From Ricordea florida (lineage: Eukaryota; Cnidaria; Anthozoa; Corallimorpharia; Ricordeidae): a stretch of DNA of 64,000 nucleotides. The stretch lies in the NCBI GenBank assembly GCA_949710005.1, contig OX453274.1, positions 11,226,668 to 11,290,667 of the forward strand, in the 5' to 3' direction. The translations under genes were made by a program, and so were the position numbers. Positions 1,211 through 26,804 of the stretch are shown here, piece after piece. The notes beneath the pieces were generated by a model. The model had not been told where the DNA came from. It searched no databases and saw nothing but the letters and a program-made list of their open reading frames with translations. Numbering within the stretch: the first letter of the stretch is position 1; each line of letters begins with the position of its first letter.

Positions 1211-1233
1211 CTAGCAAGCAAAAGGGGCACCTC
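1211..1233 (-). CDS. Candidate terminal exon of the mosaic gene
   Basis: A strong acceptor (ATTATTTTTTTCCAG) lies just upstream. Reading in phase 1 from exon 10 gives GGAPFAC followed by TAG at 1213-1211. An AATAAA signal on the minus strand at about 911-906 would give a 3'UTR of about 300 nt. The evidence is signal-based only; the gene could continue past the window instead. Confidence 0.4.
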
Positions 1234-2213
1234 CTGGAAAAAAATAATTGGTTAATATTAAGTTTCTAATAACCTGTGTCCTGTAGTAGTCATTTATAGT
1301 CGTTAGTAGTGATTTAGTACTAAATCTAACCAACAACGAGGCTGTATTTGCTCATTCAATGTTCTTTTGGGTGCACTGCGAATAATCAGTACCTGCTTCG
1401 CTGTGGTCAGAGGAGTTAGAGATCAGTGGACACACAGGGCAACACTGTCCTTTGATGTAGAGGGGTTCTCGACAATCTGGATGTCGGCACACTGTTGCCA
1501 AGCACTCTGCTATACCATTACGACAAACACACACCGTGCAGTCATTTGGTTCCCACGACTCTCCCTCACCATAGAACTTGTTACTCGGAGAGTCATGGCA
1601 CTTCACTGAAACACAAAGAGCAAAAAATAGGCAAGCATCGCATGTATGTGGCTACTGCATTTATTAAGTTTATTCGGACCTTTTTGCCATACCTATCGCC
1701 TTTCCTCGATTTCATGACTTTTACATACCCACAATTCTTCGCGTTGCGGGAATTGTATTGTGCTATGTGATTGGCTAAATAATAGGCACGCGCTGATTGG
1801 CTCCTTCACTCACTCAATCACTCGTGTTTCTTTTGACGTATTGGCTCCTGCATTATTTCATATGCAGCAGCCAAAAAACAAAACCCTTGGTGTATGACTT
1901 AATAACAATAAAAAAACAAGGCGTACATAAAAGCTGGAAGATACGGCGTAACTGGGTTCAAAGGAAGGCAAAAAAGGAGAAGAGTTTGAGTGCCAGGTAT
2001 TCGAGCCCCAAGCGTGAGGGCGAGCAGCGCGAGGGTGAGCAGCGCGAGGGCGAGCAGCGCGAGGGCGAGCAGCGCGAGGGCGAGCAGCGCGAGGGCGGGC
2101 AGCGCGAGGGCGGGCGGCACGAGGGCCACGCGCCCCAACTCTTCACGCTTGAAGTCTTCCTTTTCACGCTAGCTATGAAGGCTTCGCTATGGGCATTTCC
2201 TTACTCACAAGAA

Positions 2214-2245
<32 letters not shown>

Positions 2246-4721
2246 TGATGATAATATTGATGATGATGATAATGATATAAGACAGCACAGACGATCAATC
2301 TTCAAACAAGCCGTCATCACCTGCAGCTTTGACGATGCAGGCACTGCAATAACTGTGAATAATTGTCTCATTATCTACAACCGAGACTAAAAAGATAACC
2401 ACACCGTTACCAAAAGCAATCAAAGAACTGCTAAAAACAAAGAAGGTCGAAAATATGCTAAAGAAGCAGAACAGCAGTCCTGGCTGGGAGCCTACGCCAC
2501 CAAACAACTCCAAGATAAACAAATGCCACCTACAGCCAATCAGAGCCTAAAGAAATGGAAAATATCGCCGACATCCTATACAGCGTAAACAGGAGCATAC
2601 GCCAACAACTTTTACCAACCAAATCCTATCAGCGAAATAAAGCACAATTGAAGATTACTGACACCAAATGCAGAAAGTGTGGCACCGCTACAGAGTCAAC
2701 CACTCATGTACTGTGTGCTTGCCCAAAGATCGCACAAAGTCTCTATAAAGCAAGGCATGACGGATCGTTAAGACCTACCTATCACTGCCTACCAGAAAAG
2801 TACAACTTTCAGGAGAGCGACAATGAAAAACCGTGGTACCAACAAAAGACCCGTGTCCGCAAGTTACGTAACAAAACTGAAAACAAAAATGAAATCTTCT
2901 ATAATAATGATAATAATCATTAACAATATTAATAATTAATTGACAAGTACTAGTGCGCCACATTTAAGTAACGGTCCGGCTAAGAGGCGCGAAGAAAAAC
3001 AATAACGCTCGGCAATAGTGTCAGTTAATTTTGTGGTGCTAATTGGCGCAAAGAGCAAAAGCCAAATTTGGCCGAAAGACAGAAAACAGGGATATGGAAA
3101 AGACGAGGTCTAAAAATGACGTTTCTTGAATTTTTTTTCATTGTTTTTTTTTTCGGGGTTTTTTGGTATTAGTCAATGAGGTAAGAAGATTTAAATGGAA
3201 TTAACAATTACCTGTTCGCACCTTTTTAATGAGTTTTGCCTTACACCTGCCTACCTTTTAGCCGGACCATTACTTAAACGAGGAAAACTGGCGAGACCCG
3301 AAAACATCGGGCTTGATGCTGACACCACCATACAAGGCCTAGAGTAGGAAGGCAACTACAATTACCTTAGTGTCAATGCAGGAAATGGAATCCAACATGC
3401 AAAGATGAAAGGGAAACTTCGGAAAGAGTACTACCGTAGAACTAGGTTAGTACTCAAATCTGAGCTTAATGCAGTCAATAGAATTGACGCAATCAACACT
3501 TTTGCTGTCCCAGTCGTCACTTACAGTTTCAACATCATAAACTGGAAAATGGAAAAACTTAAGAAATTAGAGAGAAAAACGAGAAAGTTCTTGACGGTGG
3601 TAAAAACGCACCACCCAATAGCTGACGTGGACAGGCAGAAGGGCAGGTGGAAGAGGCCTTGCACAATCAAAAATTATCAACAAAACAGCCACAATTGGCC
3701 TCGATACAGATCCCACCAACACAGACGATCATCTCCTCAAACTAGCAAGGGATCATGACCGTGGCAAGAAAACAATGTCCGTACACCATCAAGCCGCAAA
3801 ATACAGTCGATAAGTCAGCTTACCTTCTGTTGAAGTGGTAGAGAATGAGCCAACCGCAAGCTGAAAGCCAAACACCAAGCTTTGGAATGACTCAAGAAGA
3901 AATAGGAAGAGAAGCCTTTGCATGGTCAAAAACCGAAATGAACGAAGAAGAAGGATGTACCCCGAGATCAAACCCACAATTGGCTTAGAACACCTGGCCT
4001 CAAATGAGAAATAGAAGGTCTTGCTTTCCAAGATCAGTGCATCAAGGCCACCTATTACCGAAACAAGATTTTAAAACATGTCACTGACCCGATGTGCAGA
4101 ATTTGTGGGAAATTCAAGAAACAGTTGACCACCTTGTCTCTGGATGCCATGAACTTGCCAAGAAGGAGTACATAGAAAGACAGAACAAAGCTGCAGTATC
4201 TCTCCACTGTACAATAAGCAAGCATTATGACATCAAAGTGTAAGACAAGCACAACAAACATGAACCAGCTACAGTGACAGAAAACCAGGCAGCGACCATA
4301 CTCTGGGACATGCCAATTCAAAGTGACAAAGAGATAAAGGCAAACAGACCAGACTTGGTGGTGAAAGATAAGAAGAAGAGAACCGGCCTGCTCACTGATA
4401 TTTCTATCCTCACAAAAAGGAACGCCTCTTTTAAAACAGTAGAAAAGCTCTCTAAGTATAAAGATCTTGAGATAGAAATCGAGAAAGCATGGAAAATGAA
4501 AACAACAACTGTGCCAGTGATCATTGGTGCACTTGGGCTTATCAAGAAGGGAACAGAAAGCCACATCAAAAAGGTCACAGGCAATATCAGAATAACAGAG
4601 CGACAGAAGATCGTCAGTAAACCGGCAGACTTATGACTGTCCTTAGCTCATGGATTGAACTCGGCACCATAAATGAAAAGAGCCAGATTTTAAGGACTTA
4701 CATGATAATGACATCATAATG

Positions 4722-4762
<41 letters not shown>

Positions 4763-7700
4763 TTATGCATTTATATTGCGCAGACTTCATGACGCCAGCA
4801 TTACAACAAGTTTGAACAAAATAAAATCTTATTTAAATACAAAATTTCTTAGTAATTGGCATTCAAAATAAGCTAAGATTCCAAAATTGAATAAAAATTG
4901 TAGTGTGAACCAACTAACAATGATTTAACAATAGATTCAAGAATTACAAAAAGCCTCCTTACATAAATGCGTCGTCAATAAAACCTTAAAAGTCTGAGGG
5001 TTGTCCAATACTGCAACAAATTTATGCATTGCATTGTATTGTATTATATGGCCATAACAATAGCTCAACAATGCATTCTAGAACGACACAATACAAAAAA
5101 ATGCATTTTAATATAATGCTGTGCACAAATTGGTCAGAGTATTGGACAAGTATGCAAAGTCTCGAGAGTTCTACTTCTTCCAGTGTTACGAGGTAAGAAA
5201 GACAATCAATTCATTGGGTAGTAAGGAGTAACAAAATTCACTGTAATAACAGAATCTCTTACAGTGCGGTGGAACAAGACTTGTGACCTTCTTTGCATGT
5301 AATGGTTAATGGCAAGAGAGCATAAGGGACAGATAGGGACCCTCCCAGTTGAGCCCTTGGGATATGAAAACTTCAGAAACGTTATTTATAGAAACGGAAG
5401 TACGTTTTCAAAGTGGTCCGCATGCCTTACCGAATAGGCCTCTTGCTTGTAAATTCCACCTGAATAATCCATAATTACAGAAACTCATAGCTGCGAGCGG
5501 TCATTAAATACAAATGGCTTGAAGGACCGGGTTACAATGGAGTCATGGGGACTTCTCGGAAAACGGACTTCCGCTTCTATGAATAGTTTTGTTGAAGTTT
5601 CCATATGTCAGCCCACGTGCCGAATGTCCATCTCTGTCCCTGATATTCCCTTGATAAGGGGTGATCTTAATTTAAGAAGAATGCTAATATTTATGACGAG
5701 CAGCGTTTTTGGGAATGGCGGAATGTATAAAGCGACGAAGCTTACCAATAGACGCCAGTGGCTTTGGAGATGGAGAAGCATTTGTATCAATTGTAGGATG
5801 ACTTTGCTCTGTAAAGAGAAACGGAACGAACATAATCCCAGCAGCTTTGGAAATTTTACAATGCTACGCCTCGGATAATTTTCAACAAAACCTAAGTGAG
5901 ACGAAACAAGGAAACTTTCGCGTGATGACCTCTTAAATGATTAACATTCAAAGGCGTAAGCACGTCAGTATGTAACGATCCTAAGGTTGTTAGTAATTGG
6001 TCAATTTCACTTTGTAGGATGTATACAGTGGACGTAGCCTGCTGAGACGGCGTAGGTAATGTTTTCATTGTAAAGCAAATCTGGGCTCGAAATTGTGGAC
6101 GCCATATTAGTTGCGCCCACGCTAGGTCAGCGCCAGGTAGAAAAACGAGAGGGAAGATGAAGATCCTCAGTACCCTCGCGTCGTCTGCTGCATGCGTCAG
6201 TGGCGAACAAACCCGGAACCCTGGCTTTCTACCCTTAAATACACCATCTAACGCCTTCTAAGAGTCTATAAGAAAAGCACAGCAGTGTTTGATTTCATTT
6301 CATTTGCCCAATTATGTCCACCACTAAGCACCAACATGACAAGTAAGGGACCTTTGATCTTTTACGAGGGGGGGGGGGGGTGGTGTGATTCGGGAAGAAC
6401 CATTTAAGAGTTGCATGACCCCACATCGGCTTTCCAATTTTTTTCACCCCCCCCCCCCCCCTTGAAGCAGCAATTTCATTGATGTGTTCCTGTTTAAACA
6501 TTATGCCATTTCAAAGTATTGCAAAAATATTTCAGGTGACCCCCCCCCCTTTCCCTATTTTTTCAGGGTATGGCCCTCCCTCGAAACCCGTTTTTTTTTT
6601 TCACATGCCCCCCCCCCAATCCCACCAGCACCCCCTTCCTCGTAAGAAGTGAACGGTCCCTAAGGTGAGGTTTTACTTGTCTATCATAACCTGAAACCTC
6701 TTACTTGAGCTGTCCTCAGAAACAACGAAATCATTGCACATGTCTTTTTTGCAACACTCCATAGTATTTTGCCGAGTTTGGTCCTGATTCTGACCACACT
6801 GACTCAGATATTCCTCTGACTTGTAGAAGCATCCTTTGGTCATTCCGCCCTCCTTGACATCACGATTGATAACAGAAAAGCACCCAACGGAGGTAGAGCA
6901 TCTATCTTGGACCCAGCACTGTGTGCAGCGACAGAAGAACGTGTTGGCTGGCAGAGAAAAAGGAAATAAACGATTCATACACGTACAGCTCAAAATTAAA
7001 GCGCCCATGCACAACTTCGGGCCCAGCGGAAAAAGGCTGATGATATCGACAAAACTACTGACGGGGGAAAATCAGTTTAATGCTCAGCTTATTTGGAAAA
7101 AAAAGTTCATAAATTCGTCCGCAGTTAAATGCAAACTCAAGCGACAGCAAGTTCTATTTGGAAAAATGGTGATATATTGCGCCCTTTGCACTAGTCCATC
7201 CCTGCTTCCTCATCGTCCCGAAAGAAACTTTTCCCGTGTTATAGAAGCCGATAAAACAAGTAACAAAAACTCAGCCAAGAACAACTATCTTATAATAACG
7301 AGCGCGGGCGACCAAAAGAGGCCTCAATTTTTCTTTACAAGCACACATGCGGGAATTCTGCAGTTCTAGCTGCAACTGTCAGTGTTAGATCAGTCTACCA
7401 GATGCTGAACTTCACCAGACATTCAGTTACTATCAAAGTTAAGTGACATGTGTAATGTAAACGGGTGGGATCACATTTGTAACACAATATTCACTTGATT
7501 CTGATTATGCTTACGTTGTCAAAGCGTAAACAATACTGATCAGTTCTTTCAGATATTGTGGGGATAGTTTCTAACGAAACTGGTGCTGCGTCGGTGGGGA
7601 ATTGAGACACAAGAAATTGGGATAATCAAACGAATTGGTTAAGTAAGTTATACCACCGTAAAGTAAAAGGGAGGTGCTGACGTTTCGAGCGTTAGCCCTT

Positions 7701-10700: not shown

Positions 10701-13700
10701 TCATCAAAGCTTACTATATTAGCAAGAGATTTTCTCATCTTCAGATCACTTTCGAGCCAACTGAAATTCATATACTGCTTGTAATCTTGGGGGCGGTCGA
10801 TGGCGGTCGATGTCGGAAAAGCGAATAGTTATCATCTGTTCACGTTTAGCGCCTGGCCGAGTAAAAGGCTCATGAAATTCAGTATCCAAGTTGGTCATTG
10901 TCCTAACTGGAAACATTTAAACTCCTTTTGATTTTAGTAAGACTGCTAATGAGGCCCTGTTAGTGAGGTTGTTTATGTCGCGCGTCTGAGTTTCAAACCT
11001 TTTCACGTCGCAATTTCGGAAGGTCGAAGGTCGCTGTCGTAATTTCCCGTGAGCGGCTCGTCGTTCGTCGCCATTTCAGGTCCTTTATGTCGCCGTTTCA
11101 AGGCCACGTCGCTTGTCGAAATTTACCCCTAACAGGGCCTCGCTAATCGTCCTCTTAAGCTACAAAATCATTACAAACTCTGGCAACGGTACGATACACT
11201 TTCAGCGTGAACTTTCATCAACAGACTTCCGTGACTTCGGTCACGACAATTGTCGTCTTCATATCGGTGCCCCCGAGTTCTATCCGACTAATTACGAAGT
11301 GTGTCTACACTGGAGTGAGTGAGTGAGTGAGTGAGTGAGTGAGTGAGTGAGTGAGTGAGTGAGTGAGTGAGTGAGTGAGTGAGTGACAATTTGCATATCG
11401 GAGTCCCCACAAAAACTCGCAAATACGCTTCGCGTATCCACGAGTTAATAACTCGGCCAGTATGTTGCCTCTTGACCTCACGCTTGGTAAATAACGCGTG
11501 TTTATTTTTTTTTCTCAAGTATCTGAGCGGGCCGGAATCCTAAATCCTCGAATTTGATTGGCTAATCACACGCGCGTAACCGGTCCAGCCCACGGGCCGG
11601 ATTTTTTCCCCGCTGTAGCGATTTCGGCTCGTTAAAAATATTAATGTTACAAAAAAGCAAATAAGTTATTTACCGAGCTAGGTCGGTCCGTATGGGAAAA
11701 AAAAACTGTGCACTTGGACTCGGGTACAGTTTTTCCCATACGGAACTCCCACCCGGTAAATAACGTATATATCGTCAATGAAGGGGCATGGATGCATGCT
11801 TATCTCCCCTGTAGATCAATTTATATTGAAAGCAGCAAACGTAGCAGAGTAGCGATGGTTTATTGCACTGAATTATAAGCAGAACTTTAAAATAAAACGA
11901 CCAAACACGGTTTGAACACACATAATCAGCATGATTTCTATTTCATGACTCCCAAAGTCCTAGACTTAAAATAATGTCGTAGCATGGCAGAGAGAAATTC
12001 TCCAACTTTACTATAGAATAAGGTAGTTTTGAACGGTCACCAGACTGAAAAATGTTGATGACATTTTGCTGTCATAGTTTAGGCAAGTTTATGGTCACAC
12101 GGCAGACTTAAAATGATCGTACAGTTCACCCACATACTACATCGATTGACTCGGGCAACATTAGCGATACAAAACTATCAGTTGCCTCTCTAAAACAGCA
12201 AAAAAATTCATATGTTACTGGCCGTTGTTCGCTGCTGCATTTCAGTATTGTATTAACCACAGGAAGACAAGCGTCTGTAATGAGAGCTCCAAAAATTGTG
12301 CTTAAAAACGTTTTTTAATACAAAATATGATATATCGCCTTTAATTAAAAATGCTTAAGGCATACATTACCAACTAGCTCTAGACAAATTGCCAAATGAG
12401 AAAAAAGAAAGCTGATATTATTAAAAATAAAGGCGCGATTACATCCCATCTCCAATGGTCGCTATTAATAACCAAACCCTTTACCAGGAAAGAGCTGCAA
12501 ATTGCTATAAAACGCTATGCCCTGCGGGCCGTCTTACTGTAGTTTAATAGTTTTAAATCTGACAAGTAAAACCAGCTATTGTGCATACATGTACATAGAT
12601 ATGAGGTTTAATATATATACTCAGGTGATAACACAAAATCGCGCGCTCTGATTAGTTCGCTATCTCGGATTATTTAGCAATTGATCAGCTCGACGAACAA
12701 AGTGGCTGCCAGTCGTTCGCGCTTTTGATGAAATAGAATTTTTTCGTGTTGTACAACGTTTTTTTTTTCTTTTCTTTTTTGAAATAATCACCTGTGTATT
12801 GATACTAAAACAATTATTCCCCTCAGGCTTAGTGATTATCGGTGAATATTCAGCTTGACTTCGTCTCGGTTAATATCCACCCATAATCACTTCGCCTTTG
12901 GCGAATAATTGTTAAATATTCCAACTGAGCTGTTATCGAACACACAATCTGAGCCTTCGCAGTCGGCAAACCAGATAGTTAATTAAAGTAGACAGCTAGG
13001 TTAGCATACATTAAGTGCTGATTTGGGAAGATTTCGGAACATTTGGTAACAGCGTCTTACGTGAGATCATTGGATCCTTACCACGAGATTTGACAAAAAT
13101 GATCAAGTGAACTGAAAAATGTGTGGCACTTGCGTCGGAAAACAACGGCTAACAGCAGAGGAGACGGACTGACAACTGAAGGCCCATCATCACAACAAAG
13201 TGGAGAACTAATTTCTATCACTTGTATTTTTCAAACTGCACAAGCGAATGCCCTTAACCTAGACACCCTTGCAATTGTCGTAAACATAGTACAGGTATAA
13301 AACCTGCCTATCAATTGTCAGTCCGTCTTCTCTGCTGCTCGTGTCTGGTTTTGCTTTCCGAAGAACGTGCTGCATACTTTTTCAGGTCAACAGATCATTT
13401 TTGTCAGATCGTGTGGTAAGAATTCAACGCTCTCACTGTCGACAGATTCTTCACTCCAGTGATTTTGATAGTATTCCATAACTACGTGTACTTATGTAAT
13501 TCAACTAGTGAAAAAACCGTTAAAACTGTCACAAACGGCTGTTCGCTGTATACCTTGGTTCGCTACGAAAAGGAAAAAAGAAACTGTGTATCTCACCTGA
13601 GTTAACTGAGGCAGCGATGAAAGGAGGCAAACTAGAAACTGACGTGGTTGGGTAAACTGTTGGGGCAAGAAAAGCATATTGCGGCTTAGTTTATATTTAG

Positions 13701-16700: not shown

Positions 16701-19700
16701 TGAAGGCTGACGCAAACAAATTTTAGAAGCGAACAACTAAGAAGAAGGCTTATGAGTTATGACTAATGTCTTACTTCTACACCAATAAACCACATACTTG
16801 ATTTTCTTTCTTTCTTTTGGCAGAATACTAGTTATATTAGAAATCCGCTGGTCAACACAGCCGTGGGAGCGCATCCCTGCACCCCTCCCCTGGATCCGCC
16901 CCAGCTTCAGCTTTCATGCAGGTGTTATGGATCAATTTTATCCATGGTTTCAATTTCATTTTCCTTTGTCTCAAACTCATCATCACACATTACTGTACCA
17001 AAAAGCGAAGGACAATAAAATCTAAACCAAGCAAAAATTGAACCGCAACATATATATACCTGACTGGAGCTAAGCTCTCTAAAAGGTCGTTCTTTGTGAA
17101 AGCTAAACCAAAGTCAGGGGTATGCTATGATTGCCTAATAACCGGTATACCATTCTGGTTATTTCATTGGCACGGACGGTTACCATAGCAACATTATAGG
17201 CTACTGAACAATAGAACCACGCGGTGACCTTTGCTTTTTGTTCTTCAATTGCCGTTGAATTATTGCGGCGTGACATCTCGAAAAGTTTTAAAGGAATCAG
17301 GGGCTACCTTGCATTTACACACGAGGCAGCAGTAAATCCAAAATTACCAAGAGAATTGTTAGAAAAAAGACCAATGAACACATGCAGACAAAGGTATGTA
17401 CGCCTTCATTTTCAACTCTCAACTACCCTATTAGCGGCGGGCAAGAATTTATATTCCTGATATCTTACAGTTCACTGTGTGAAGAACAATTCTTATTGTT
17501 TTTGTTATCTTAAAGTGTGTTTCCATAGGGGACGGACCATTAGAAAAGTGATGGGGGGGGGGGGGGTGGGGAATTTTCAGCTTGCACGAATTTTTTTTTT
17601 CGCTCACTGCTTGTGCAGGAATTTTTTTTTCAGGTGAATCCCTCTGCACGAATTTTTTTTACTTCGTGTGAAAAAGTCACAATTGGACCTTCCTTCTGCA
17701 TGAATTTTTTTTTTACCTTCTTCTTTACATGAATTTTTTTTGGCATTTTCCCTTGCATGATTTTTTTTTTTGTTTTTTCCCCAGCCTCCACCACCCCCCC
17801 CCCCCCCCGCCCCACATCACTTTTCTAATGGTCCGTCCCTAGGTTATAAATGTTGCTATGGTAACCTCTGTAACCTCTTCAGAAACGAACTGGGCCAGGT
17901 CTATGAATGAAGTCTGAAGTATTGCCAGGAGCACATGGGCTCCTCGTAATCCGTAATTAGAGATTTTAGAGGGGAGTAAAACTATCCTATAAGCAGGTAA
18001 TCTAATGAAACGAAAACGCTAGTTTAAATCTAGGCACATGGCAGAACGATATTTGAAATACTCAATCCTCCATGTTTTTTTTAAAATTTGCTTCTACTGA
18101 CTATATCAGCGACATTTAACGTTTTTGCAATCCCGTTGTTTTCAATTTGCCTTAAGTCGCTCGCCATTCTTGCAGCTATATTTCTAGACGTTTCATCTGG
18201 TTTACATGGAGTAGTAAGATGGTTGGTCGTACACTGATGTCATAACTACAGTTCGGGTGTCAGTTTGTCTGGTTATGTAACTCATTTGTGCTAATGGCCG
18301 AACGCCTACGGATATCTTCAATGCTGATACCACCAGCTCAATACATTGTAGAGAACTGTGCGTTTTAAATTTTCCTTACTTCTGTTTCTCAGAACACAAA
18401 AGTTCTTGCAAGCAGTCTTGGTGTAAAAGTTGTTGGCATTTCCTTCACAGCCGCCATACAGGAAGGCCACACACTTTCCCCTTGTCTTGTCATAATACCA
18501 ACGCTGAAATGCGGCACGGCAAGGGCCGTCATCAGGATCAAACAGACACTGGAAAGGAATCTTATCTGCAAAAGCAAACGAGCATTACTTGAGGTGGCCA
18601 GCCACATGATTCACTAACTTGAATCTAGCAAATTATAGTGTACATATGATTTTGTGGTTGAAGTTGATCGTCCGGGTATAGCTAATTGTGAGAGAACTGT
18701 TTTTGGCGTCGACTGCCGTTTACATGAGGTCACTGTCAGGAACTTGATTCCCCCAAACTCATGAATGATTAATAAGTGCAACACATTGAAAATCAAGCCG
18801 TGACAGGTTGGGATATCTGATGAAACATGGCTTGTTTTTGCATCTTTGTTTTCTACTTACAAATCATTTCTTTTAAGACGCTTTATCAAAAAGTCAAACA
18901 TGCCGAACTTCGCGGTGTTTTATATGTAATGGAAGACACTGTGTTTCGTGTTTGATATATTACCGCAATTTTTCGGTTACAGGACGCACTCGGTTATAAC
19001 ACGCACCCCTAACTTCAATATCGTTATTGTGTCAAAGCAAAAAAATGAAAATTTCACTTAAAAATTCGGCTATAACCCGCCACCGAAACTAAGTGTAAAT
19101 TTTCCTTCAAGTTGGCTTTTATGGAAACAAAACGTTATTGAATTCTCTAATTAGCATCTTTTCATGAACGAATAAAAAAGGAAACACTCAAACCTTCATT
19201 AAGGAAAGACAAAAAGTTACACGTCTTGACGATACACAAGTCAGAACACTCAGGAAAGAAATTTATCGATCTGTTCTTTCGTTTACAAACATCACCTATG
19301 CGTTTGGATAATCAGATGCTCAACGTCGCTCCCGAGATAATTCGCCAGTATATTCGTATGAGCGTATATTCCAAAAGGATTTTCCATGAAGTAAAGTACT
19401 TGCCGTCGCACGTACGATTCAGTTGTTATCACGCTCATCAAAAAATGCTGAATTGTATAGAGCTGATTTGTATTTTGATGCGCACAGACATATTTGGATC
19501 GATGAGAGAGGAACTCCTGGTGACTGGATTTTGACCTATCATACATACATACATCCTTTATTGTCTTTCCCCACGGGGGCTTTTCGAAGACAATATGGTA
19601 CACTACAACATACAACATACAACAACATAGTTAAGAATCCCAACTGGTGGGAGGCAGACCAGTTGGCTATTTACAAGGATGATCGAGGAGTTGAACCAGG

Positions 19701-20391
19701 TACTTACCCAGAACAACTCCAAGTAGTGGCCAGAGCGGGATTTGAATCCGGGTCACCGCATTGAAATACCGCGCCCTAGACCACTCGGCCATCCTGCCTC
19801 AGTATTTCGGGCTAAACACATACATGTTATCCAGTCGATACATCTACAAGACTTAACATCTCACCTCTTTTGTCGCCATCCGTCAATCGTGCAGGGGTAG
19901 ACGGATGAGTTTCGGTAACAGGTCGATCGCCGTCTGCAGCACAAACGTTGTCCCAACCAAAGTCAAATGGAGTACTGTCACGTTATAATACTTTTAACAG
20001 GTACTTTATATCTTCTTACAGACTCTCCTCATACCCATTACTTAATAATGCGTAAGAATAACAAGGAAATCACGAACTGTGACGTGTTTGGATATCCACG
20101 GAAACACGATGTGTTTTGCGTTTTTAATTTCTCCTTCTACTATCACTCCCTACATGAAATGTTTTATCAAACACTCGATACCTGTGTCAGTTTTATCAGG
20201 TATAAGATAACCTCGAAATGCGTCAAAAACGCTTTGGTAAACGTTGTATTTTCAACTCTTCTTTGAATAAGTTACAGGTAAGAGAACTGCAACTTTTTAT
20301 GCTATCTATATTCACTGACTTAACCCGTGTAGCATCATACTCAGGGTCCGAAATTGCGCTTTCCTGGTCGCCAATGCGACTAAAAATTGGG

Positions 20392-20437
<46 letters not shown>

Positions 20438-23400
20438 TATTTCATAACGATGTGTCGATCGTCTTGACAGAACGCGAATGGAAAGACCGTTTTGAACATA
20501 GAGCAAAAAACGAAACGGGAGTTGATTCGTTCGTGGTGGTTTTTCAGTGGTAGGTGTATAAATAATCAGCGTGTTTGTATTTAATCTTATTCGTTAGCGG
20601 AAAAATCGCCATTGCGGCCCCAAATACATTCTCTTCGTTCTGATTCTTGAAAGAAAAATTGGCGACCAAAAATTGTGGCTTGTGTTTCGCTGCAAAGAAA
20701 AATTTTATTGTCGCTTTTTGGCGACAACATTTTTCCATATGGCGACTGAAAAAAAAAAAATTCCAGTCGCCAGTAGGCGCCTGCCTAAAAAAGTTAATTT
20801 CGGACCCTGATACTATGTTTACTCTCGCAGGGTTTTCAACACGAATTGTAACAGCAGGAGAATTGTGTAAAGTAACAGGAGGATATTCTGAAAGCGCTAC
20901 ATGTCTGAATTTAAAACTAGCTCAGGCCATCTAAATTTGACCGGAGAATTCTCCGTAGTAGCTGGAGGATTCTTCGATCTCCTATGCCTAATGAACACTC
21001 TGTACTCGCTGTTTGATATGTAATCACACTCCCTCACGTTTAATACACATCTTGCAACATTTTACGACAGATTTAACCAACATGAGACATCCTAGTGCAG
21101 TGGTAAGCGTGTTGGACTTCTAATCAGGAGGTGCACGGTTCGAACCCTTGAGATGAAACTGTGCTGTTACCATAGACAAGAAACTCAACTCAACAGTTTC
21201 TCTCTCCGAACAAGTGTGCAAATGAGTACTGGGGGTAGCCCTGTGATGGACTAGAATCCCATCTGGGGGGGGGGTGGGGGGGAAGTAACAACATGCTCAG
21301 GTGCTTCATGCTACAGAAATCGGGACAAACACCGGCCGTGTAAGCCTCAAGGCTCGTATGCGTCTTTGCTCTCTTTTCCTTCTTACTCTTACACAAACAC
21401 GTGTAACAATTTACCCGATGGATTCCCTGGCACGCAAACAGCAACATCAGGGATGTTAGCCTCCGGAATACCAGGAATTTGTACTTTACACTTGTATCCT
21501 TTAGGACAGCTTGATTGAATAGTCCTACCATTGACATCTGGCGACACTGAACAGCTTTCCGTGGATACTTGAGGACAATCTGACTCAACAGTACACTTCC
21601 ACTCCCCATGGAAACAACGACTGCCAAAAAAGGATTGCAAATAATGAACTCTTTTATCAAAATGCAATTTGCACAATCCATTTTGAATTTTAAAGAGTTG
21701 ATGGGTGAACTGCAAACGAAACAAACTTTCACATACGTTTCTTGGAAAAAAATACTATTGTTATTAATTATTATTACTATTATTATTATTAATCTATACC
21801 GCGCAGTTTCTATGTAAATATTCAACTGTGCCTTACAAGAAAACCTCATAGGTAGACATGGCCTAACTGCATTCAGTAAAAATCTAATATATAGATTTAG
21901 CCAAGCCTAAAAGCGGGGCTCCCGTTAGTACTTTCATTTCACTTTAAACTGTAAAAGCATTCTAAAATATTGCGAAGGAATTCACAAACGTTTTTAACTA
22001 TAGTTAAGTGTCGAGGTCGGTTAACTTGCTATGATTTTTGTCTAAACTTTCGTCTGCCATTAGTACGGTCTTTCTACCTACAAAGTCATGCAGTATATTC
22101 TACAAAAAACACAAATTATCAATGTACTGTATTCTATTCCTGATGAAATTAACCATTGTATTTGCGTAAATGTATTTAAAAGATTTGTACACGCTACTGG
22201 GAAATGCAGGACACAACTCTTGTCATTTTCGTGTTAAAACGAACACCTCGGTAAAATAATTGTTTACTCCAAGCATGAAGGGTGCAAAGAAAATTAATTT
22301 TACAGATTGCCGCAAGCTGTAACCAACATCTACCAGCCCGAAAAACATTTTTCACGAGAATGAAAAAATAATTATCAATTATTCTTTTCTTAATTACATT
22401 GTAAGTTTAAAAAATTACTGCCTTCATTTATTCACTACAATCAGCTGTAGTTACTTAACAAAAGAAATAACCGTAAAAGTGTGAACTATAAGTAGACCTG
22501 GTCCAACGCAACACGTGAATGACTAACATACATTTGAGACATTTTACAATTTAGAAGAACATTTTTTACGAAAACAACGGCGTTGAAACCAAAGTTCTCA
22601 ATCGACACACTAAATGACAACGTCGATAACGCGAAAAGCTGCCAGTGAAAGCGCTACATTCTGCAATTTGCCGCCAAGAGAAAATTCCCGCGGGAGTATT
22701 TCTTAGCCGTCGACAGGGGAGATGTTTATATGATTAAAGGTCATAAAAATTTGAAGTGAGCATCAGTGAGCAAATATTATGCAGACAACACTTATGCAAA
22801 TTTGTGGTCCATAGCACGGAGTCTTCCACTTCTCGGCTTTCTTCGCTACATATTTGTCTGTTTTCCACAACACGGAGTCTTTCCGCTTCTCGGCTTTCTT
22901 CGCTACAATTTTGTCTGTTTTCCACAGCACGGAGTCTTTCCGCTTCTCGGCTTTCTTCGCTAAAATTTTGTCTGTTTTCCACAGCACGAAGTCTTTCCGC
23001 TTCTCGGCATTCTTCGCTACAATTTTGTCTGTTTTCCACAGCACGGAATCTTTCCGCTTCTCGGCGTTCTTCGTTAACATTTTGTCTATTTTCTCGAGCC
23101 CGGAATCTTTCTGCTTGTCGGCGTTCTTCGCTATAATTTCGTCTCCTTTCTCTTTCCCGAGCGCGCCTTCTTTGGCGATCTACTTCGCTCATTCTTCCTC
23201 AGTTAATTCTTGCTCTCTTTCCCGTTGCTCTTCACCTGAACCCTGTGTTCTGCAAATTATATTTTCTCTGCTATTGTTTGTTGACATAGCAATAGAAATT
23301 GTTTCGTTTATCCTTTAGTAAAACTTTAACAGTGTAGAGTAGTAATATTGTGTCTCAAAAAGACAATGAACTGAAAATTTCTTTTTCAGTCGTCAACGCA

Positions 23401-26400
23401 ATTTCCCGCCAAAAATACGCGGGCTACCAGAACAGCTTCCAAATAAATCACGTCACCTCGATGAGTTGACACATGAGCCCACAATATGGTCATGTGATGC
23501 TGGTCAGTGGCTAACCTGTTTTGATAGCTGTCAATTGACCATATTGTCCAATACAAAAGATGTGGATTTGCCAAGACAAGCCTGAGATACCCCTCCCTTC
23601 CTTTTTGATAGTCTCCCCTACCCTACCCGTACAATCTGTAGACGCGCACGTACGGACGGACGTACGTACGTACGTACGCTCGGTCAGTCACGTGACAACC
23701 AAACGAAAAGAGGTTGACCATATTCCATGAGTATGGGGCTCTGCTCCACGCGCGCTTCGCGCGCGGGAGCCCCGCTACTAGTATATCAATGAAAATGCCG
23801 AAATCTGATTGGCTGAGCTACTGCAGACTATTAAACAATTAGATTATGAGCTCGAGATTTCTATCGCGCGATAGTTGACGAGGGCGCAGCCCGAGTCAAC
23901 TATCACGCATAGAAATCGAGAGCGAATAATCTAATTGTTTTAGTATAAATCTACTAGTCCTTCAAAATTTTGTCTTTTCTGGAACAGCCTCGACCAGTAA
24001 ACTGCCTAAATCTTCTACACGGACACTTCGAAAACGTGAAGAAGCGGCCGCCATTACGCTACTCGCTATCTATCACAGAATAGATAGTGAGTAGCGTAGC
24101 CAATCAGAGCGCGGCATTTGTGATAGAACACTAGTAGATTTATACTAAAAGCCATTAGACAGCACTTGGTTGAAGATCGTTTTAGTAATGTTGATGTATT
24201 CGCTCTCTAGCGAAGTTTTGCAGAAAGGTTTAGGATTTTGGTATTTTTCCACTGAGACATGATTTGTTTATTATGATTTCTACTAAAACAATTTGAAATC
24301 TCGAGCTCGTGATCTAATTGTTAAATACTTGTGACTGATGTCAGAAACACACGCGTTTTATGTTCGATAAGTTGCCTCTCTTGTTCACAACATTCGGCTG
24401 TCCTCGAAACTTTGTCTCTTGGGCAATTATTCATTTTGTGTTGTCAACGGGGCATATAATTCATGGTAGGCCACCATATATAGTCTCCCAGGGTGTACAG
24501 GGGTATACAATGGTTTGCAGGGAAGTATAACAAGGTGTTCATTGGTTAGCATTATATGGCTGGAAGACTATATGGTGGCCTACCATGAATTATATATCAT
24601 TGTATACACCTGTACACCCTGGGAGACTATACGGTGGCCTACCATGAATTATATGCCGTCAATGGTGGCATGCCATGACAGTCCGTCTGAATTTCAACGC
24701 TTTATTTTAATTTCTATTGTAACAGGAGGTCGGTGAATACTCGCAGGTAACGTAACATTGTGCCATTAAGTTTAACCCCACCAGCTTCATAGAAGGCCTT
24801 ACTACTAACCATTCTTCACAGCTGCTCTTGCCTCTTCGTGTTTCACCAAATCGAAAAGTCCTACCGCCATGGAAACATCCTGGCAGAAAAAAAGACTAGC
24901 TTTGGCTTGATACAACAAAAAATAATTTAAATGTAGTTCCTCTGTCTTAATGCAAGGAGGAGATAAAGGTATTGAGCTAAGGCTTTCTAGTAAGTGAAGA
25001 CAGGGGCTTCACAATCCATCTTATGATAGGTCATAAAGTAGTTGACAGAGTTGCTGAACTTTAAATCAGCTTAGCAACATACTAGACATATTAGACATTA
25101 CAACTATTATAAACTATGCTCAATGGTAGCTCAGTGAGTTGTGCTATTACAACATCACTGTCTGTTTAGCAGTGACTTTGGGAGACAGGGGCTGCTAAAA
25201 CCACCACTCAGCCTAAACAAGGCTTCCATTTTGTTTAAAAAAAAAAAAAGAAAAAAATCCCTTACTTTTACAAGGTCCCTGCATCAGCCCAATATCACTT
25301 CCAGAATGGCACTCATCTTTATATAGCTCACACTTATTATTGTACTGCTTTCCATTGTGATAACCACATACTGGCTTGTTTAAATAGTGGTTACAAGATT
25401 TTATGCATGTGCACTTTGGTAGTCCATTGACTCCAAGTGTACATACTTCATGGATGCCACATCGCTTTCTTTTACACATGACTGAAAAAAGACCGATATA
25501 AAACAACTTATGCAACAGACGGCATCAAAATAAGTTATTAGATTCTAAATAAATATAGAAACATGTAACACAACCACATTTTTGCAAAGCAGTGGGACAG
25601 CAAACATTGCTGTTTTAATTACATTACAGTCTCAGCTTACTTACTATAATAAACAAAACTATTTATTAAAAATTATCATTATCATCATTCATCATCATCA
25701 TTATCATTATCATTACAATTATTATTATTATTATCATTATTATTAGATGAGGCTTTTGGGATACTGAGAAAAATCTGGACTGGAATAGATGAGAATTTAA
25801 AATGAGATTGAGATGACAAGCGAAGAAAACTGAAACTGCATGCAGAGCCACTATATTGAGTACAGCTACAAAAACATTTTGGAAAAGGTATGGAAAATAA
25901 GGAGATATGTCAACTAGACAAACATAGTTAAGGAAGATGGGTGGAGTGACAATGTTTCAAAACTGAGTGCAATAACACAGGACAAGACTAAAAAGTGCAT
26001 ACAACAATAAATGACTCATATATACATAAACTGCAGGCCATATCACCTGTAATGATGAATGTCAAATACTTCTTAAACATTTAAGCATCACTTCTATATA
26101 ATGTGGTTTTATTTATGTAACCCTGTTGGGACGTGCAAGGCAAAATCTTCAGCCTGTCTAATTTCTCCAAAATGAAACCCTTAAATGAAAGTAGAAATAA
26201 ATACAGGGTACTGTACGTTGTCCTATAGGATTAGAGACCCCATGTGAGCATTAAACTTACTTCAATCATCATGAAATTCTAGAGTCCTAATGGTCACATA
26301 CAATAGTTTCCCTTACAGACCCTCAATCTGTGACATTTCAAAAAGCAAATCTCTGAACAGTTAAGAATAACTATTATCACTAATTTATTATTTTGATTAT

Positions 26401-26804
26401 TATTGTGATAACTGATTTGCACTATAAAACAGGACAAAACCCATCTACGATGATCTGCATCTAAGTGACTACTTCATGCAACAAGTGAATAACTTCATAT
26501 TACACCAGCATACCAGGTTCACAAAAGCCCAATCCTATATCCTTGCGTCGATCCCTAACAACGCATGCCAGTCCTGTATCACAGCGACCCTCAGTGTTCC
26601 AAAGTCCTCCACACATTTCCCCCTCCACCTTTGCACAAACTTTACAACAGCCACATACAGAATCTACCACACCTCCTTTGCAGTTAACAGGTTCAATACA
26701 TTGGACTTGAGAACATGGCAAACATGATAAAGAATAGACAGGGTAACTGGTCATCAGAAAGGTTGCTATTAGCAACAGTGCTTTGAAGCCCATCGTGTTC
26801 CTCA
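1211..26804 (-). CDS. Secreted mosaic protein: IGFBP, follistatin/Kazal, VWC, 2 Kunitz, BMP-receptor-like, VWC (multi-exon gene)
   Basis: Assembled by hand from splice sites on the minus strand. Exons, 5' to 3': 26804-26514 (ATG at 26793), 25481-25266, 24879-24810, 21620-21415, 19933-19865, 18565-18380, 16221-16159, 14569-14378, 6947-6705, 1605-1393 and a tentative last exon 1233-1211 (TAG). The reading frame stays open across every junction: 586 codons plus stop. All introns are phase 1 except the phase-2 intron inside the first VWC domain. Predicted order: signal peptide (1-21), IGFBP (22-92), follistatin/Kazal (94-165), VWC-like plus Cys-rich tail (166-257), linker, Kunitz (281-342), Pro/Thr linker, Kunitz (364-427), type I BMP/activin receptor ectodomain (428-508), VWC (509-579). 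No transmembrane segment is seen, so the product is probably secreted. Each family binds growth factors or inhibits serine proteases elsewhere; the combined role is inferred. I do not recognise a named orthologue. It could be two genes, but phase agreement at all junctions argues for one. Confidence 0.75.
1393..1605 (-). CDS. Exon 10: von Willebrand factor type C domain
   Basis: 71 codons, phase 1 to phase 1. Ten cysteines form a full VWC domain: [26 protein letters not shown]...C...C...DC...QCCPVCP. VWC domains of this kind bind BMPs in chordin, CRIM1 and kielin. The acceptor is TTTGTGTTTCAG and the donor GCAG|GTACTG, so at least one more exon follows. Confidence 0.85.
1625..1840. repeat. 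Dispersed repeat, copy 1
   Basis: Shares, in opposite orientation, the blocks around 36055-36260: the TTTTTGCCATACCTATC block, the TTTTACATAC block and CTTCACTCACTCAATCACTC followed by GTGTTTC. The edge TTGGCTACTGCATATGAA type motif recurs at 36034 and at the right end of the window (63980-64000). Confidence 0.65.
2026..2115. repeat. 15-bp GC-rich minisatellite
   Basis: About six units of GAGGGCGAGCAGCGC. Frames stay open through it because the unit is a multiple of three, which creates apparent Arg/Glu/Gly-rich and Ser/Ala-rich ORFs. An AAT microsatellite follows at about 2213-2245. Confidence 0.85.
2450..2925 (+). pseudogene. LINE fragment: zinc-finger region after reverse transcriptase
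   Basis: Translation gives [20 protein letters not shown] and [12 protein letters not shown], the CxxC...HxxxxC knuckle and KRRHD-like motif found between the reverse transcriptase and endonuclease of R2/NeSL-like LINEs common in cnidarians. The upstream frame is broken. It lies in the last introns of the mosaic gene on the opposite strand. Confidence 0.6.
2930..3289. other. Intronic stretch, nothing recognised
   Basis: AT-rich sequence with T-tracts near 3120-3170. No ORF or repeat structure stands out. Confidence 0.4.
3290..4690 (+). pseudogene. Degenerate R2/NeSL-like LINE, 3' part
   Basis: Three broken pieces lie in order. At 3330-3660 is a reverse-transcriptase thumb region ([20 protein letters not shown] ... 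[17 protein letters not shown]). At 4050-4160 is a CRICG knuckle remnant. At 4274-4636 is the restriction-like endonuclease region ([20 protein letters not shown] ... [14 protein letters not shown] ... [14 protein letters not shown]). Frameshifts and stops separate the pieces, so it is inactive. A GAT/AAT microsatellite at 4715-4762 follows and may be its tail. Confidence 0.75.
4765..6660. other. Intronic stretch with homopolymer-rich repeat at 6290-6660
   Basis: 4765-6290 holds no recognised exon. 6290-6660 contains G and C runs (about 6369-6382, 6446-6461, 6540-6548, 6608-6616) embedded in a partly inverted repeat with AAGGGACC / GGTCCCT ends, the look of a poly-G-bearing MITE like the one at 17526-17842. 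Confidence 0.4.
6705..6947 (-). CDS. Exon 9: activin/BMP type I receptor-like ectodomain
   Basis: 81 codons, phase 1 to phase 1. The acceptor is TTTTCTCTGCCAG and the donor TCAA|GTAAGA. Ten cysteines follow the three-finger pattern of the Activin_recp family: [13 protein letters not shown]...GC...GC...QC...[10 protein letters not shown]. The closing ECC....CN is the signature of type I BMP receptor ectodomains and related Ly6/uPAR folds. No transmembrane or kinase sequence follows, so this is a soluble receptor-like module. A Ly6-type fold without ligand binding is the alternative. Confidence 0.75.
6950..7609. other. Intronic stretch, nothing recognised
   Basis: The plus-strand ORF crossing 6836-7369 is antisense to exon 9 and has no family resemblance of its own. 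Confidence 0.4.
7610..7794. mobile_element. 185-bp foldback element
   Basis: Arms begin CAAGAAATTGGGATAATCAA and return as the inverse at the right end. Both arms also carry CCACCG...TGCTGACGTTTCGAGCG-type sequence. A partial copy with the same ACGTCAGCACCTCCCTTTTA block lies at about 54187-54285. Confidence 0.8.
7800..8778. other. Intronic stretch, nothing recognised
   Basis: No exon-like phase-compatible segment, LINE motif or clear inverted repeat was found. Confidence 0.35.
8779..9165. mobile_element. Nested repeats: duplicated block around a 183-bp MITE
   Basis: GGCAGAGATCTCATGTATAT occurs twice in direct orientation (8779, 8840), each followed by a CCACCACGA.TCCC block, and a degenerate inverted copy ends near 9165. 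Between them 8905-9087 has 17-bp perfect inverted ends CAATAGAGCGTTTTCAC, a MITE. Confidence 0.65.
9280..9362. repeat. Short GC-rich inverted repeat
   Basis: CGGGCGGGCAAGAT near 9275 returns as ATCTTGCCCGCCCG near 9350. It could form a stem with a loop of about 60 nt. No function is apparent. Confidence 0.5.
9800..10054 (-). pseudogene. Helitron-like helicase/Rep ORF fragment
   Basis: The minus-strand translation contains [20 protein letters not shown] then [11 protein letters not shown], resembling the G.PT.F.TLS.A..RW block of the Helitron_like_N region in cnidarian PIF1/Helitron ORFs. It is about 87 residues, truncated on both sides, in an intron of the mosaic gene. Confidence 0.6.
10289..10543 (-). 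other. Unassigned minus-strand ORFs
   Basis: Two overlapping frames are open ([20 protein letters not shown] and [17 protein letters not shown]). A good donor AAAAGA|GTAAGT lies at about 10403, and a weak acceptor near 10490. Neither frame gives phase 1 at both ends, so I did not add it to the mosaic gene. It may belong to the neighbouring Helitron remnant. Confidence 0.25.
11312..11387. repeat. (GAGT)n microsatellite
   Basis: About 19 uninterrupted GAGT units. Confidence 0.95.
11640..11768. repeat. Foldback around GTATGGGAAAAA
   Basis: AAATAAGTTATTTACCG...CCGTATGGGAAAAA...ACTG is mirrored by CAGTTTTTCCCATACGG...CCGGTAAATAACGT. It is an imperfect palindrome of about 120 bp; flanking sequence up to 12620 holds nothing else recognised. 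Confidence 0.6.
12622..12925. repeat. ~300-bp dispersed repeat, copy A
   Basis: Matches 16246-16531 over most of its length, for example ACTCAGGTGAT, AAAATCGCGCGCTCTGATT, GACGAACAAA.TGGCTGCCAG and AAATAATCACCTGTGTATT. Internally it contains inverted GATTATCGGTGAATATTCA-type arms. Probably a non-autonomous DNA element. Confidence 0.75.
12926..14377. other. Intronic stretch with a possible 9-nt micro-exon at 13605-13597
   Basis: Nothing is recognised except a TTAACTCAG segment on the minus strand at 13605-13597, between a pyrimidine-rich CTGCCTCAG acceptor and a consensus CAG|GTGAGA donor, with phase 1 at both ends. Confidence 0.3.
14378..14569 (-). CDS. Exon 8: second Kunitz/BPTI domain
   Basis: 64 codons, phase 1 to phase 1. 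Six cysteines in Kunitz order ([20 protein letters not shown] ... [16 protein letters not shown] ... C...C). P1 is again Arg. It ends in a basic stretch (RKK) before the donor AAAG|GTAAAG. It shares the GPCRA.F.RWYY core with the first Kunitz domain, which suggests tandem exon duplication. Confidence 0.9.
14935..15235. repeat. Dispersed repeat family (copy 1 of 3)
   Basis: Shares AGTAACAGG.GAA.TGTGTAA, ATATTCTGAAAG and ATGCCTAATGAACAC with 20825-21005 (same orientation) and, inverted, with 35030-35170. The rest of the interval from 14600 to 16150 shows no gene. Confidence 0.65.
16159..16221 (-). CDS. Exon 7: Pro/Thr linker exon
   Basis: 63 nt, phase 1 to phase 1. The acceptor is TTTTTCATCAG and the donor CAAG|GTAAGA. 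It encodes [20 protein letters not shown], a linker with one N-glycosylation sequon (NVS), between the two Kunitz domains. The sequence is too short to identify by homology; support comes from phase and splice signals. Confidence 0.6.
16246..16531. repeat. ~300-bp dispersed repeat, copy B
   Basis: Second copy of the element at 12622-12925. The internal hairpin ATTATCGGTGAATATTCACC followed by GATAAT is nearly perfect here. It starts about 25 bp from the acceptor side of exon 7. Confidence 0.75.
16532..17525. other. Intronic stretch, nothing recognised
   Basis: No exon, repeat or ORF with family resemblance was seen. Confidence 0.35.
17526..17842. mobile_element. MITE with poly-G/poly-C interior
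   Basis: Terminal inverted repeats start TAGGG(G)ACGGACCATTAG and run about 27 bp (17526-17553 against 17815-17842). Inside are a G run, a C run and several T-rich TGCA(C/T)GAATTTTTTT units. TA at both outer ends suggests TA target duplication. Confidence 0.75.
18380..18565 (-). CDS. Exon 6: first Kunitz/BPTI domain
   Basis: 62 codons, phase 1 to phase 1. Six cysteines have Kunitz spacing ([20 protein letters not shown] ... [16 protein letters not shown] ... C...C). The residue after the second cysteine, the P1 position of the inhibitory loop, is Arg, as in trypsin-type inhibitors. Kunitz folds also occur in cnidarian venom peptides, but the multidomain context argues for a structural or inhibitory extracellular protein. 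Confidence 0.9.
18600..19540. other. Intronic stretch, nothing recognised
   Basis: A block near 18960-19100 (CGGTTATAACACGCACCCC and CGGCTATAACCCGCC) resembles transposon-end sequence, but no second boundary was found. Confidence 0.35.
19541..19798 (-). mobile_element. tRNA-derived SINE with LINE-like tail
   Basis: On the minus strand the 5' end (19798) reads GGCAGGATGGCCGAGTGGTC (A-box-like) and carries GGATTCAAATCCC (B box) about 40 nt later. The 3' end (19541) is CAATAAAGGATGTATGTATG with a repeating tail. The tail resembles that of the L2/CR1-like LINE end at 63085, a likely mobilising partner. Confidence 0.75.
19865..19933 (-). CDS. Exon 5: short linker exon
   Basis: The exon is 69 nt, 23 codons, phase 1 to phase 1. 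The acceptor is TGCTGCAG and the donor GAG|GTGAGA. It encodes a hydrophilic linker ([20 protein letters not shown]...) without cysteines, rich in Thr/Pro and a plausible O-glycosylation spacer between the Cys-rich segment and the first Kunitz domain. It was found only because its splice sites and phase match both neighbours. Confidence 0.6.
20342..20809. mobile_element. hAT-type non-autonomous element
   Basis: Ends CAGGGTCCGAAATT and AATTTCGGACCCTG are inverted repeats with the hAT-like CAGGG start. Sub-terminal GGTCGCCA/TGGCGACC blocks are also inverted. About 468 bp without transposase. An exact 8-bp target duplication is not evident. Confidence 0.75.
20825..21005. repeat. Dispersed repeat family (copy 2 of 3)
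   Basis: Matches 14935-15235 and, inverted, 35030-35170 through AATTGTGTAAAGTAACAGGA, ATATTCTGAAAG and CCTATGCCTAATGAACAC. Confidence 0.65.
21083..21375 (+). mobile_element. tRNA-derived SINE with conserved central domain
   Basis: The head has TAGTGCAGTGGTAAGCG (A box) and GGTTCGAACCC (B box). The body includes CCTGTGATGGACTAGAATCC then CATC and a CCGGCCGTGTAAGCCTCAAG block, which resembles the broadly conserved central domain of V/Deu-type SINEs. It ends about 40 bp from the donor of exon 4 of the mosaic gene. Confidence 0.7.
21415..21620 (-). CDS. Exon 4: C-terminal VWC half and unassigned Cys-rich segment
   Basis: The acceptor TTTTTTGGCAG is followed by [17 protein letters not shown], which finishes the VWC-like domain begun in exon 3. 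About 50 more residues follow with three further spaced cysteines ([11 protein letters not shown] ... AVCVPGNP) that I cannot assign to a family. Phase 2 in, phase 1 out (TCGG|GTAAAT). The VWC domain here is atypical, because the usual second-half CC..C motif is absent. Confidence 0.75.
21640..22733. other. Intronic stretch, mostly AT-rich
   Basis: An ATT microsatellite lies at about 21757-21792. No other feature is recognised. Confidence 0.35.
22734..23192 (-). CDS. ORF with six 19-residue (57-bp) charged repeats
   Basis: 152 codons from ATG at 23192. A basic N-terminus ([19 protein letters not shown]) is followed by about six 19-residue units like [18 protein letters not shown]. The period is 57 bp, with substitutions between copies mostly keeping the charge pattern. 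The shape recalls the Arg/Glu-rich repeat leaders of some cnidarian PIF1/Helitron ORFs and STPR-type repeats, but STPR units are 23 residues. It lies in an intron of the mosaic gene, same strand, and after the repeats the frame runs into unrelated sequence. Probably a decayed transposon ORF; a real expressed exon is possible. Function unknown. Confidence 0.4.
   Translation of the reverse strand: MSEVDRQRRRARERERRRNYSEERRQAERFRARENRQNVNEERREAERFRAVENRQNCSEECREAERLRAVENRQNFSEESREAERLRAVENRQNCSEESREAERLRVVENRQICSEESREVEDSVLWTTNLHKCCLHNICSLMLTSNFYDL
23193..23719. other. Intronic stretch with (ACGT)n microsatellite
   Basis: An ACGT/ACGG microsatellite lies at about 23648-23680. Nothing else is recognised. 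Confidence 0.5.
23720..24330. mobile_element. Nested cluster of foldback elements
   Basis: 23834-23939 is a near-perfect palindrome (AACAATTAGATTAT... and its inverse). 23938-24150 has 20-bp inverted ends TTTAGTATAAATCTACTAGT. A hairpin, CGCGCTTCGCGCG, lies at 23750-23765. A third block near 24285-24335 repeats the AATCTCGAGCTCGTGATC arm, so the second element appears inserted into the first. Confidence 0.65.
24451..24657. mobile_element. Foldback element with ~60-bp arms
   Basis: GGCATATAATTCATGGTAGG at 24451 returns inverted, ending at 24657. A third partial arm copy at about 24566-24597 lies in the loop side. Confidence 0.75.
24810..24879 (-). CDS. Exon 3: N-terminal half of a VWC-like domain
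   Basis: A 70-nt exon. The acceptor is CTGCCAG and the donor TG|GTTAGT. Read in phase 1 it gives [20 protein letters not shown] then EE; the split last codon completes as Cys with the next exon. The CFHGGRTF...GE...C pattern is typical of chordin/VWC repeats. The exon bridges the phase mismatch between exon 2 (ends phase 1) and exon 4 (begins phase 2), which supports it strongly. Confidence 0.75.
25266..25481 (-). CDS. Exon 2: follistatin-type EGF-like segment plus Kazal domain
   Basis: A TTTTTTCAG acceptor opens 72 codons, phase 1 in and phase 1 out. The first part ([12 protein letters not shown]...CTC) looks like the FOLN segment of follistatin-type modules. The second part has the Kazal core ([20 protein letters not shown]...GPC). 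FOLN-Kazal pairs occur in follistatin, FSTL1, SPARC and agrin, and IGFBP followed by Kazal is the N-terminal order of HTRA1 and IGFBP7. The donor is AAAA|GTAAGG. Confidence 0.85.
25490..26513. other. Intron 1 of the mosaic gene
   Basis: An ATT/ATC microsatellite lies at about 25672-25745. Nothing else is recognised. Confidence 0.5.
26514..26804 (-). CDS. Exon 1 coding: signal peptide and IGFBP domain
   Basis: ATG at 26793-26791 opens a hydrophobic signal peptide of about 21 residues ([20 protein letters not shown], then S) followed by 12 cysteines. The CGCC..CA motif ([18 protein letters not shown]) marks an insulin-like growth-factor-binding N-domain, as in IGFBPs, CRIM1, HTRA1 and CCN proteins. 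A pyrimidine-rich tract ending in CAG just upstream of 26804 suggests a 5'UTR intron, so an upstream in-frame ATG at 26868 is probably intronic. The donor is CCTG|GTATGC and leaves phase 1. Confidence 0.85.

Follow-up and report, generated by a model that had tools for sequence, protein, structure and literature searches.

A mosaic gene of corals and sea anemones predicted to encode an alternatively spliced, secreted regulator with growth-factor-binding-type and protease-inhibitor-type modules

CRIM1, like its counterparts CRM-1 in C. elegans and Crimpy in Drosophila, starts with an IGFBP domain that is followed by several VWC-type repeats, and antistasin-like repeats are a further feature of this protein. 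Besides WAP, Ig and NTR domains, the secreted proteins WFIKKN1 and WFIKKN2 each contain a follistatin/Kazal module and two Kunitz modules. In KAZALD1 and IGFBP7, an IGFBP domain is followed by a Kazal module and then by an Ig domain. Kunitz modules with Arg or Lys at the P1 position are found in papilin, which also has thrombospondin type 1 domains, and in TFPI, SmCI and bikunin; TFPI has in addition a basic tail after its Kunitz domains. The BMP type I receptors BMPR1A, BMPR1B and ACVR1 have a Cys-patterned ectodomain and a kinase, and BMP signalling patterns the second body axis of anthozoans. CRIM1 is described as a type I transmembrane protein (PMC4731764).

The locus described here, from the corallimorpharian Ricordea florida, has likenesses to all of these systems. 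The window, that is the whole stretch of 64,000 nucleotides that was analysed, corresponds to C3:11226668-11290667 of a 538-Mb genome in 48 contigs. The sequence-only reading had recognised exons for IGFBP, follistatin/Kazal, VWC-like, two Kunitz, type I receptor-like and VWC modules, lying in order on one strand with compatible phases. The mosaic gene is real, although this first model of it is not quite right. Splice sites and alignment to homologs gave 14 phase-compatible exons on the minus strand, separated by 13 introns, 12 of which are in phase 1 and one, inside VWC1, in phase 2. The module order is signal peptide and IGFBP, follistatin/Kazal, VWC1, an orphan Cys module, a first Kunitz module (KU1), a second (KU2), the BMP type I receptor-like ectodomain (ActR), VWC2 and the start of VWC3, with five short linker exons. 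On this strand, exon 1 (26514..26793, donor phase 1) contains the start codon, a hydrophobic leader that looks like a signal peptide by inspection and the IGFBP domain (Pfam, 5.7e-9), and exon 2 (25266..25481, phase 1-1) encodes the follistatin/Kazal module (Kazal_2, 1.9e-5). VWC1 is split over two exons: its first part is in exon 3 (24810..24879, phase 1-2, from splice sites and homolog alignment) and the rest, together with the orphan Cys module, in exon 4 (21415..21620, phase 2-1), for which eight homologous slices show 48-62% identity. Linker exon A (19865..19933, phase 1-1), which has splice sites and stands at the linker position of homologs with a weakly conserved sequence, precedes the KU1 exon (18380..18565; Pfam Kunitz, 7e-20), and linker exon B (16159..16221, phase 1-1, from homolog alignment) follows it. 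Next come the KU2 exon (14321..14569 when followed through to its stop; Kunitz, 1.9e-21), linker exon C (13597..13656, phase 1-1), which aligns with a linker of homologs, the ActR exon (6705..6947), linker exon D (5746..5808, phase 1-1), placed by its position in the homolog alignment, and the VWC2 exon (1393..1605; Pfam VWC, 1.7e-11), which is 85% identical to the Oculina patagonica protein P0001. Linker exon E (1087..1131) reads LIKAFADNKLDTVL and matches LIKAFAENKLDTVL of homologs; the start of the VWC3 exon (1..35), VSINHGHQRDVC, matches VSINHG..DVC of homologs and runs off the window.

When Pfam was run on the open frames of the window, IGFBP, Kazal_2, both Kunitz modules and VWC exceeded their cut-offs. 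The VWC-like piece at 21.4 kb had no Pfam match of its own, just Lustrin_cystein at 0.13, and NCBIfam models gave nothing useful. The named modules were thus found in the order first proposed, ActR being weak by Pfam and recognised by profile (below), and the named exons join at consensus splice sites with every junction in phase. Missing from the earlier exon list were six further exons of the window (the first half of VWC1 and the five linkers) as well as the VWC3 start.

The gene had also been thought to end at 1211. Long homologs contradict this, as they continue EADLIKAFAENKLDTVLVSINHG, which is encoded in the window by linker E and the VWC3 start; a candidate stop exon at 1211-1233 (TAG at 1211), supported by no long homolog, was rejected. 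The gene extends beyond the window, reaching at least C3:11,221,868, and covers about 31.6 kb between its start codon and the last exon matched. Outside the window, VWC4 lies at C3:11223547-11223774 (71% identity to P0001) and a last half-VWC at C3:11221868-11221951 (75% identity to P0001); the 2,500 bases adjoining the window read N, and the rest of VWC3 would fall there. With P0001 as query, a search of the own genome gave at least 46 matches (59 of 80 candidates scored). Nine of the 46, the best six included, lie in this locus and the remaining 37 are dispersed exons of Kunitz, follistatin, VWC, IGFBP or receptor type; no second locus with modules in order was seen among the 46. A family search of the same genome for IGFBP domains returned two matches, the only one besides the mosaic's own being an exon at L017:5728-6324 (G000:C9) on the minus strand (1.7e-4).

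The window holds other elements as well. Two 300-nt direct repeats, 100% identical, at 43899-44198 and 49865-50164 flank a plus-strand ORF at 44175-49793 with Pfam matches to Peptidase_A17, RVT_1, DUF1759, DUF5641 and an integrase zinc-binding domain; ORF and repeats together are a recent BEL/Pao-type LTR retrotransposon. A plus-strand ORF at 2519-2920, in the intron between linker D and VWC2, matches zf-RVT below cut-off (0.003) and is probably a retroelement remnant. Also on the plus strand, a 378-aa ORF at 33146-34279 consists largely of an 18-nt tandem repeat (47 copies, 33220-34073) and has no Pfam match.

A protein search found 43 proteins, 14 of which belong to the mosaic family by shared modules (P0030 and P0033 are partial chains); the seven named members among these 14 are from corals or sea anemones. 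The Oculina patagonica chain is 55% identical over 98% of the query, and family chains also come from Pocillopora meandrina, Orbicella faveolata, Acropora muricata, Actinia tenebrosa and Nematostella vectensis. The other 29 proteins are all listed with Kunitz in their precomputed Pfam annotation and align over 11-34% of the query; the final hit is a WFIKKN-like protein of Pleurodeles (P0043; 35% over 24%). A second protein search found six proteins, all of the mosaic family, and a profile search with a seven-member query found 34, three of them in the family; it missed P0001, P0004, P0005 and P0033 of its own query, so that its reach is limited with regard to the range outside corals and anemones. 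In the tree of the front half, the window is sister to P0001, P0004, P0005 and P0009 (98/96), apart from P0006, P0011 and P0013 and from the anemone chains, a placement consistent with a coral or with a near outgroup such as a corallimorph; the VWC2 tree does not resolve it. By Pfam, three or four VWC stretches are present per chain in P0001, P0005, P0006 and P0011, and both Kunitz modules occur in one chain in P0006, P0007 and P0013. The Acropora-type chains P0014, P0015 and P0026 are without follistatin and VWC1, so that their IGFBP domain is immediately followed by the orphan Cys module and KU1.

In Oculina, Pocillopora, Actinia and Nematostella the ortholog is a single chain, which argues against a chance juxtaposition of modules and, with the own-genome locus, bears out the view that this is one gene. 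An annotation artefact, in which two or more neighbouring genes have been fused by gene prediction, is very improbable: mosaic architectures predicted in lancelets have been blamed on errors (PMC4967905), but here uninterrupted chains on contigs of 1.5-3.2 kb span module borders (P0004, P0007, P0013, P0014, P0024, P0026) and the module order is conserved from corals to anemones. We therefore regard ligand-binding-type and inhibitor-type modules as parts of one locus and of one apparently secreted family, as had been proposed.

All the modules are known, and among the families tested (CRIM1, WFIKKN, type I receptors, papilin) there is none whose definition this combination satisfies in full, so that the claim of an order unlike described proteins holds for these families. 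Compared with CRIM1, the mosaic gene carries inserted follistatin, Kunitz and ActR modules. It may differ as well from the transmembrane CRIM1 in its C-terminus, as no membrane segment was seen there by eye in the mosaic chains P0001, P0004-P0006 and P0011, the 3' end of the window's gene being only partly covered. Antistasin had no match at E 0.1 in P0001, P0005, P0006 and P0011 and appeared just in P0033, below cut-off. P0033 (309 aa) has IGFBP, a follistatin-like stretch, VWC and one Kunitz module, and is perhaps a link towards CRIM1-like proteins. The follistatin/Kazal plus two Kunitz set of WFIKKN1/2 is found in the mosaic at the level of the gene, but IGFBP, VWC and ActR stand in place of WAP, Ig and NTR, for which there was no match in the window exons (E up to 1) or in ten homologs (E up to 0.1). 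Likewise, neither an Ig domain as in KAZALD1 and IGFBP7 nor thrombospondin type 1 was matched in the window exons or the homologs scanned. The best 60 of 158 PDB matches cover just Kunitz parts of the mosaic. The automatic names of family chains are 'cysteine-rich motor neuron 1 protein-like', 'papilin-like' or 'uncharacterized', and we found no description of such a protein in the open literature searched, including under LOC5502690, the identifier of the gene in Nematostella.

Comparison of the homologous chains suggests alternative splicing of the mosaic gene. P0004 and P0007 share 351 of 358 residues before they diverge, P0004 passing into VWC2-4 without ActR and P0007 into KU2 and a basic tail, where it ends; P0015 and P0026 diverge in the same way after 228 of 229 identical residues. 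In both pairs the divergence point is the exon boundary after linker B, which is thus the last common exon before the alternative 3' parts. P0004 and P0007 are on contigs of 3,242 and 2,251 bases, far too short for a gene of more than 31 kb, and therefore look like transcripts. Because neither pair matches perfectly, each may combine different alleles or even sister species. Beyond KU2, the frame in the window encodes a basic tail and then a stop. This tail scores 33 against that of P0007 (reached by 85 of 5,000 shuffles) and 34 against that of P0026 (53 of 5,000), the frames after 11 other donors of the locus scoring at most 19 against the same tails; its score of 22 against the tail of P0013 (326 of 5,000) is not significant. 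About 77 nt after the KU2 stop there is a polyadenylation-type hexamer, which is weak alone given 34 such hexamers on this strand in 27 kb. From these comparisons, KU2 is most likely the last coding exon in the window's lineage, although a phase-1 donor at 14377, kept in the KU2 exon, and the Actinia chain described below count against it.

The sequence-only reading had instead proposed one soluble chain with all modules at once, which would trap a ligand and also shield ligand or matrix from proteolysis. Every exon, KU2 included, is phase-compatible in order, and one protein, the Actinia chain P0006, does combine IGFBP and two Kunitz modules with an ActR-like stretch and four matches to VWC. 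However, P0001, P0004, P0005 and P0024 go directly from linker B to linker C without KU2, P0007 and P0026 stop after KU2 with a tail similar to that encoded in the window, and the end at 1211 on which this chain was modelled is contradicted by the homologs. With such alternative 3' parts, a chain with all modules is unlikely in corals, where KU2 and ActR are probably in separate transcripts. The earlier reading held that transcripts ending between the modules would mean two or more independent genes; KU2-ending forms of that kind are indeed indicated, but they share the 5' half with the VWC-rich forms, which speaks for one gene with alternative ends. ActR itself is probably a cassette exon. 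Nine chains count as long, in that they continue beyond the Kunitz part to ActR or VWC2 or begin shortly ahead of it (the gene-model fragment P0030 was left out), and ActR is present in five (P0001, P0006, P0009, P0011, P0024) and absent in four (P0004, P0005, P0014, P0015). We do not claim a second alternative end inside ActR, as in P0009, because the 1,500 nt around the window's read-through stop contain no hexamer of polyadenylation type.

The P1 position of Kunitz domains is fixed by rule, and P1 is Arg in both KU1 and KU2 of the window and Arg or Lys in all 16 Kunitz rows of the family, which exclude the Kunitz of P0033, missed by the regular expression, and the first of P0007, a duplicate. 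In the Kunitz tree the KU1 rows group at 85/95 and the KU2 rows are unplaced. The Kazal module had been counted among the inhibitors; at what we take to be its P1 position it has His, and it is more likely of the non-inhibitory follistatin type. The orphan Cys module is strongly conserved within the family and has no significant PDB match by profile or fold, its predicted model having a pLDDT of 70 and a pTM of 0.43. Its top match, the tick complement inhibitor RaCI, was not significant (profile E 0.13; fold E 0.12) and was rejected as an identification.

For ActR, the Pfam model Activin_recp gave 0.026 on the open frame and 6.3e-4 on the exon alone (21.1 bits, cut-off 20.9), and it matched all six members of the ActR family. 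A profile of these six had BMPR1A as best match (5.9e-9), and the predicted model best matches type I receptors in fold comparison; the likeness to BMPR1A, BMPR1B and ACVR1 thus covers profile, fold and ectodomain Cys pattern. BAMBI and Ly6/toxin-type Pfam models also match, weakly. ActR is encoded by one phase 1-1 exon, and by inspection so are the receptor ectodomains of this genome. It differs from the BMP type I receptors in that it stands in a secreted-type chain, can be skipped and has no kinase: neither GS motif nor kinase was matched in P0001, P0005, P0006, P0009, P0011 and P0024. Within the BMP-2 epitope of BMPR1A, whose hot spot is Phe85 (PMC2946932), the window's ActR keeps Phe60 and Gln86, has Ser for Phe85 and Asn for Arg97, and has Val at 62 and Met at 99. 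Gln86 is kept in all four coral-lineage ActR modules.

The substitutions at Phe85 and Arg97 weigh against the ligand-binding role that we prefer below, and they bear as well on the view that the protein belongs to the extracellular or skeletal matrix, its modules working in adhesion and in the control of proteases and playing no part in growth-factor action. Modules of the VWC, Kunitz and IGFBP types do occur in matrix proteins, and key BMP-2 contacts of the receptor are replaced in ActR. Against this, ActR keeps the type I receptor pattern, with Gln86 conserved as above, and no such module name is in the main text of the three skeletal-proteome papers searched, so that we give this view little credence.

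As to the origin of ActR, pairwise scores over six ActR modules are 109-125 for a receptor on C2, 84-117 for one on C12, 59-87 for one on C3 and 60-96 for BMPR1A, which favours the C2 receptor as the nearest, but no branch of the ActR/receptor tree is starred. The C2 gene (L016:1-1590, G000:C2:35267601-35269190) encodes a type I receptor of the TGF-beta family that has a kinase, a weak GS match and a divergent ectodomain (Activin_recp 1.2e-5), and this ectodomain has the best score against the mosaic ActR among the receptors of this genome. We suggest, only tentatively, that the ectodomain exon of a BMP type I receptor, possibly of a cnidarian one like that on C2, was taken up by a hexacoral gene. 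Through alternative splicing this gene would now yield, on a common IGFBP-follistatin-VWC front half, either a soluble BMP trap with the receptor module or a Kunitz inhibitor, and would thus be a splice-switched decoy receptor and antiprotease.

Taken as a whole, one locus encodes a front half of signal peptide, IGFBP, follistatin, VWC1, orphan Cys module and KU1, followed by parts that relatives use alternatively. The mosaic is predicted from its sequence to be a secreted modular regulator of growth factors and proteases. The explanation that we prefer, with moderate confidence, is that the coral/anemone lineage has here a single gene for an extracellular regulator of secreted type, from which alternative splicing yields two forms, a short one with Kunitz modules and a long one that binds BMP/TGF-beta-class ligands. 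Behind the common front half, a splice choice would lead either to KU2 and a short basic tail or to VWC2 onward with or without ActR, and would thereby decide between protease inhibition and ligand binding. Because of the Kunitz fold and the Arg or Lys at P1 in the family rows, the short form might act on trypsin-like proteases as a two-headed inhibitor, which the basic tail perhaps anchors in the matrix. The long form might bind ligands of the BMP/TGF-beta class through its row of VWC modules, and also through the receptor-like module if the cassette is included, acting as a soluble trap or carrier.

With automatic names such as CRIM1-like or papilin-like, the make-up of this gene is easily missed in databases. 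It would be a clear case of exon shuffling, in which symmetric phase-1 exons build a new regulator, and engineered receptor traps would have a natural counterpart in a secreted protein with an optional BMP type I receptor-like cassette.
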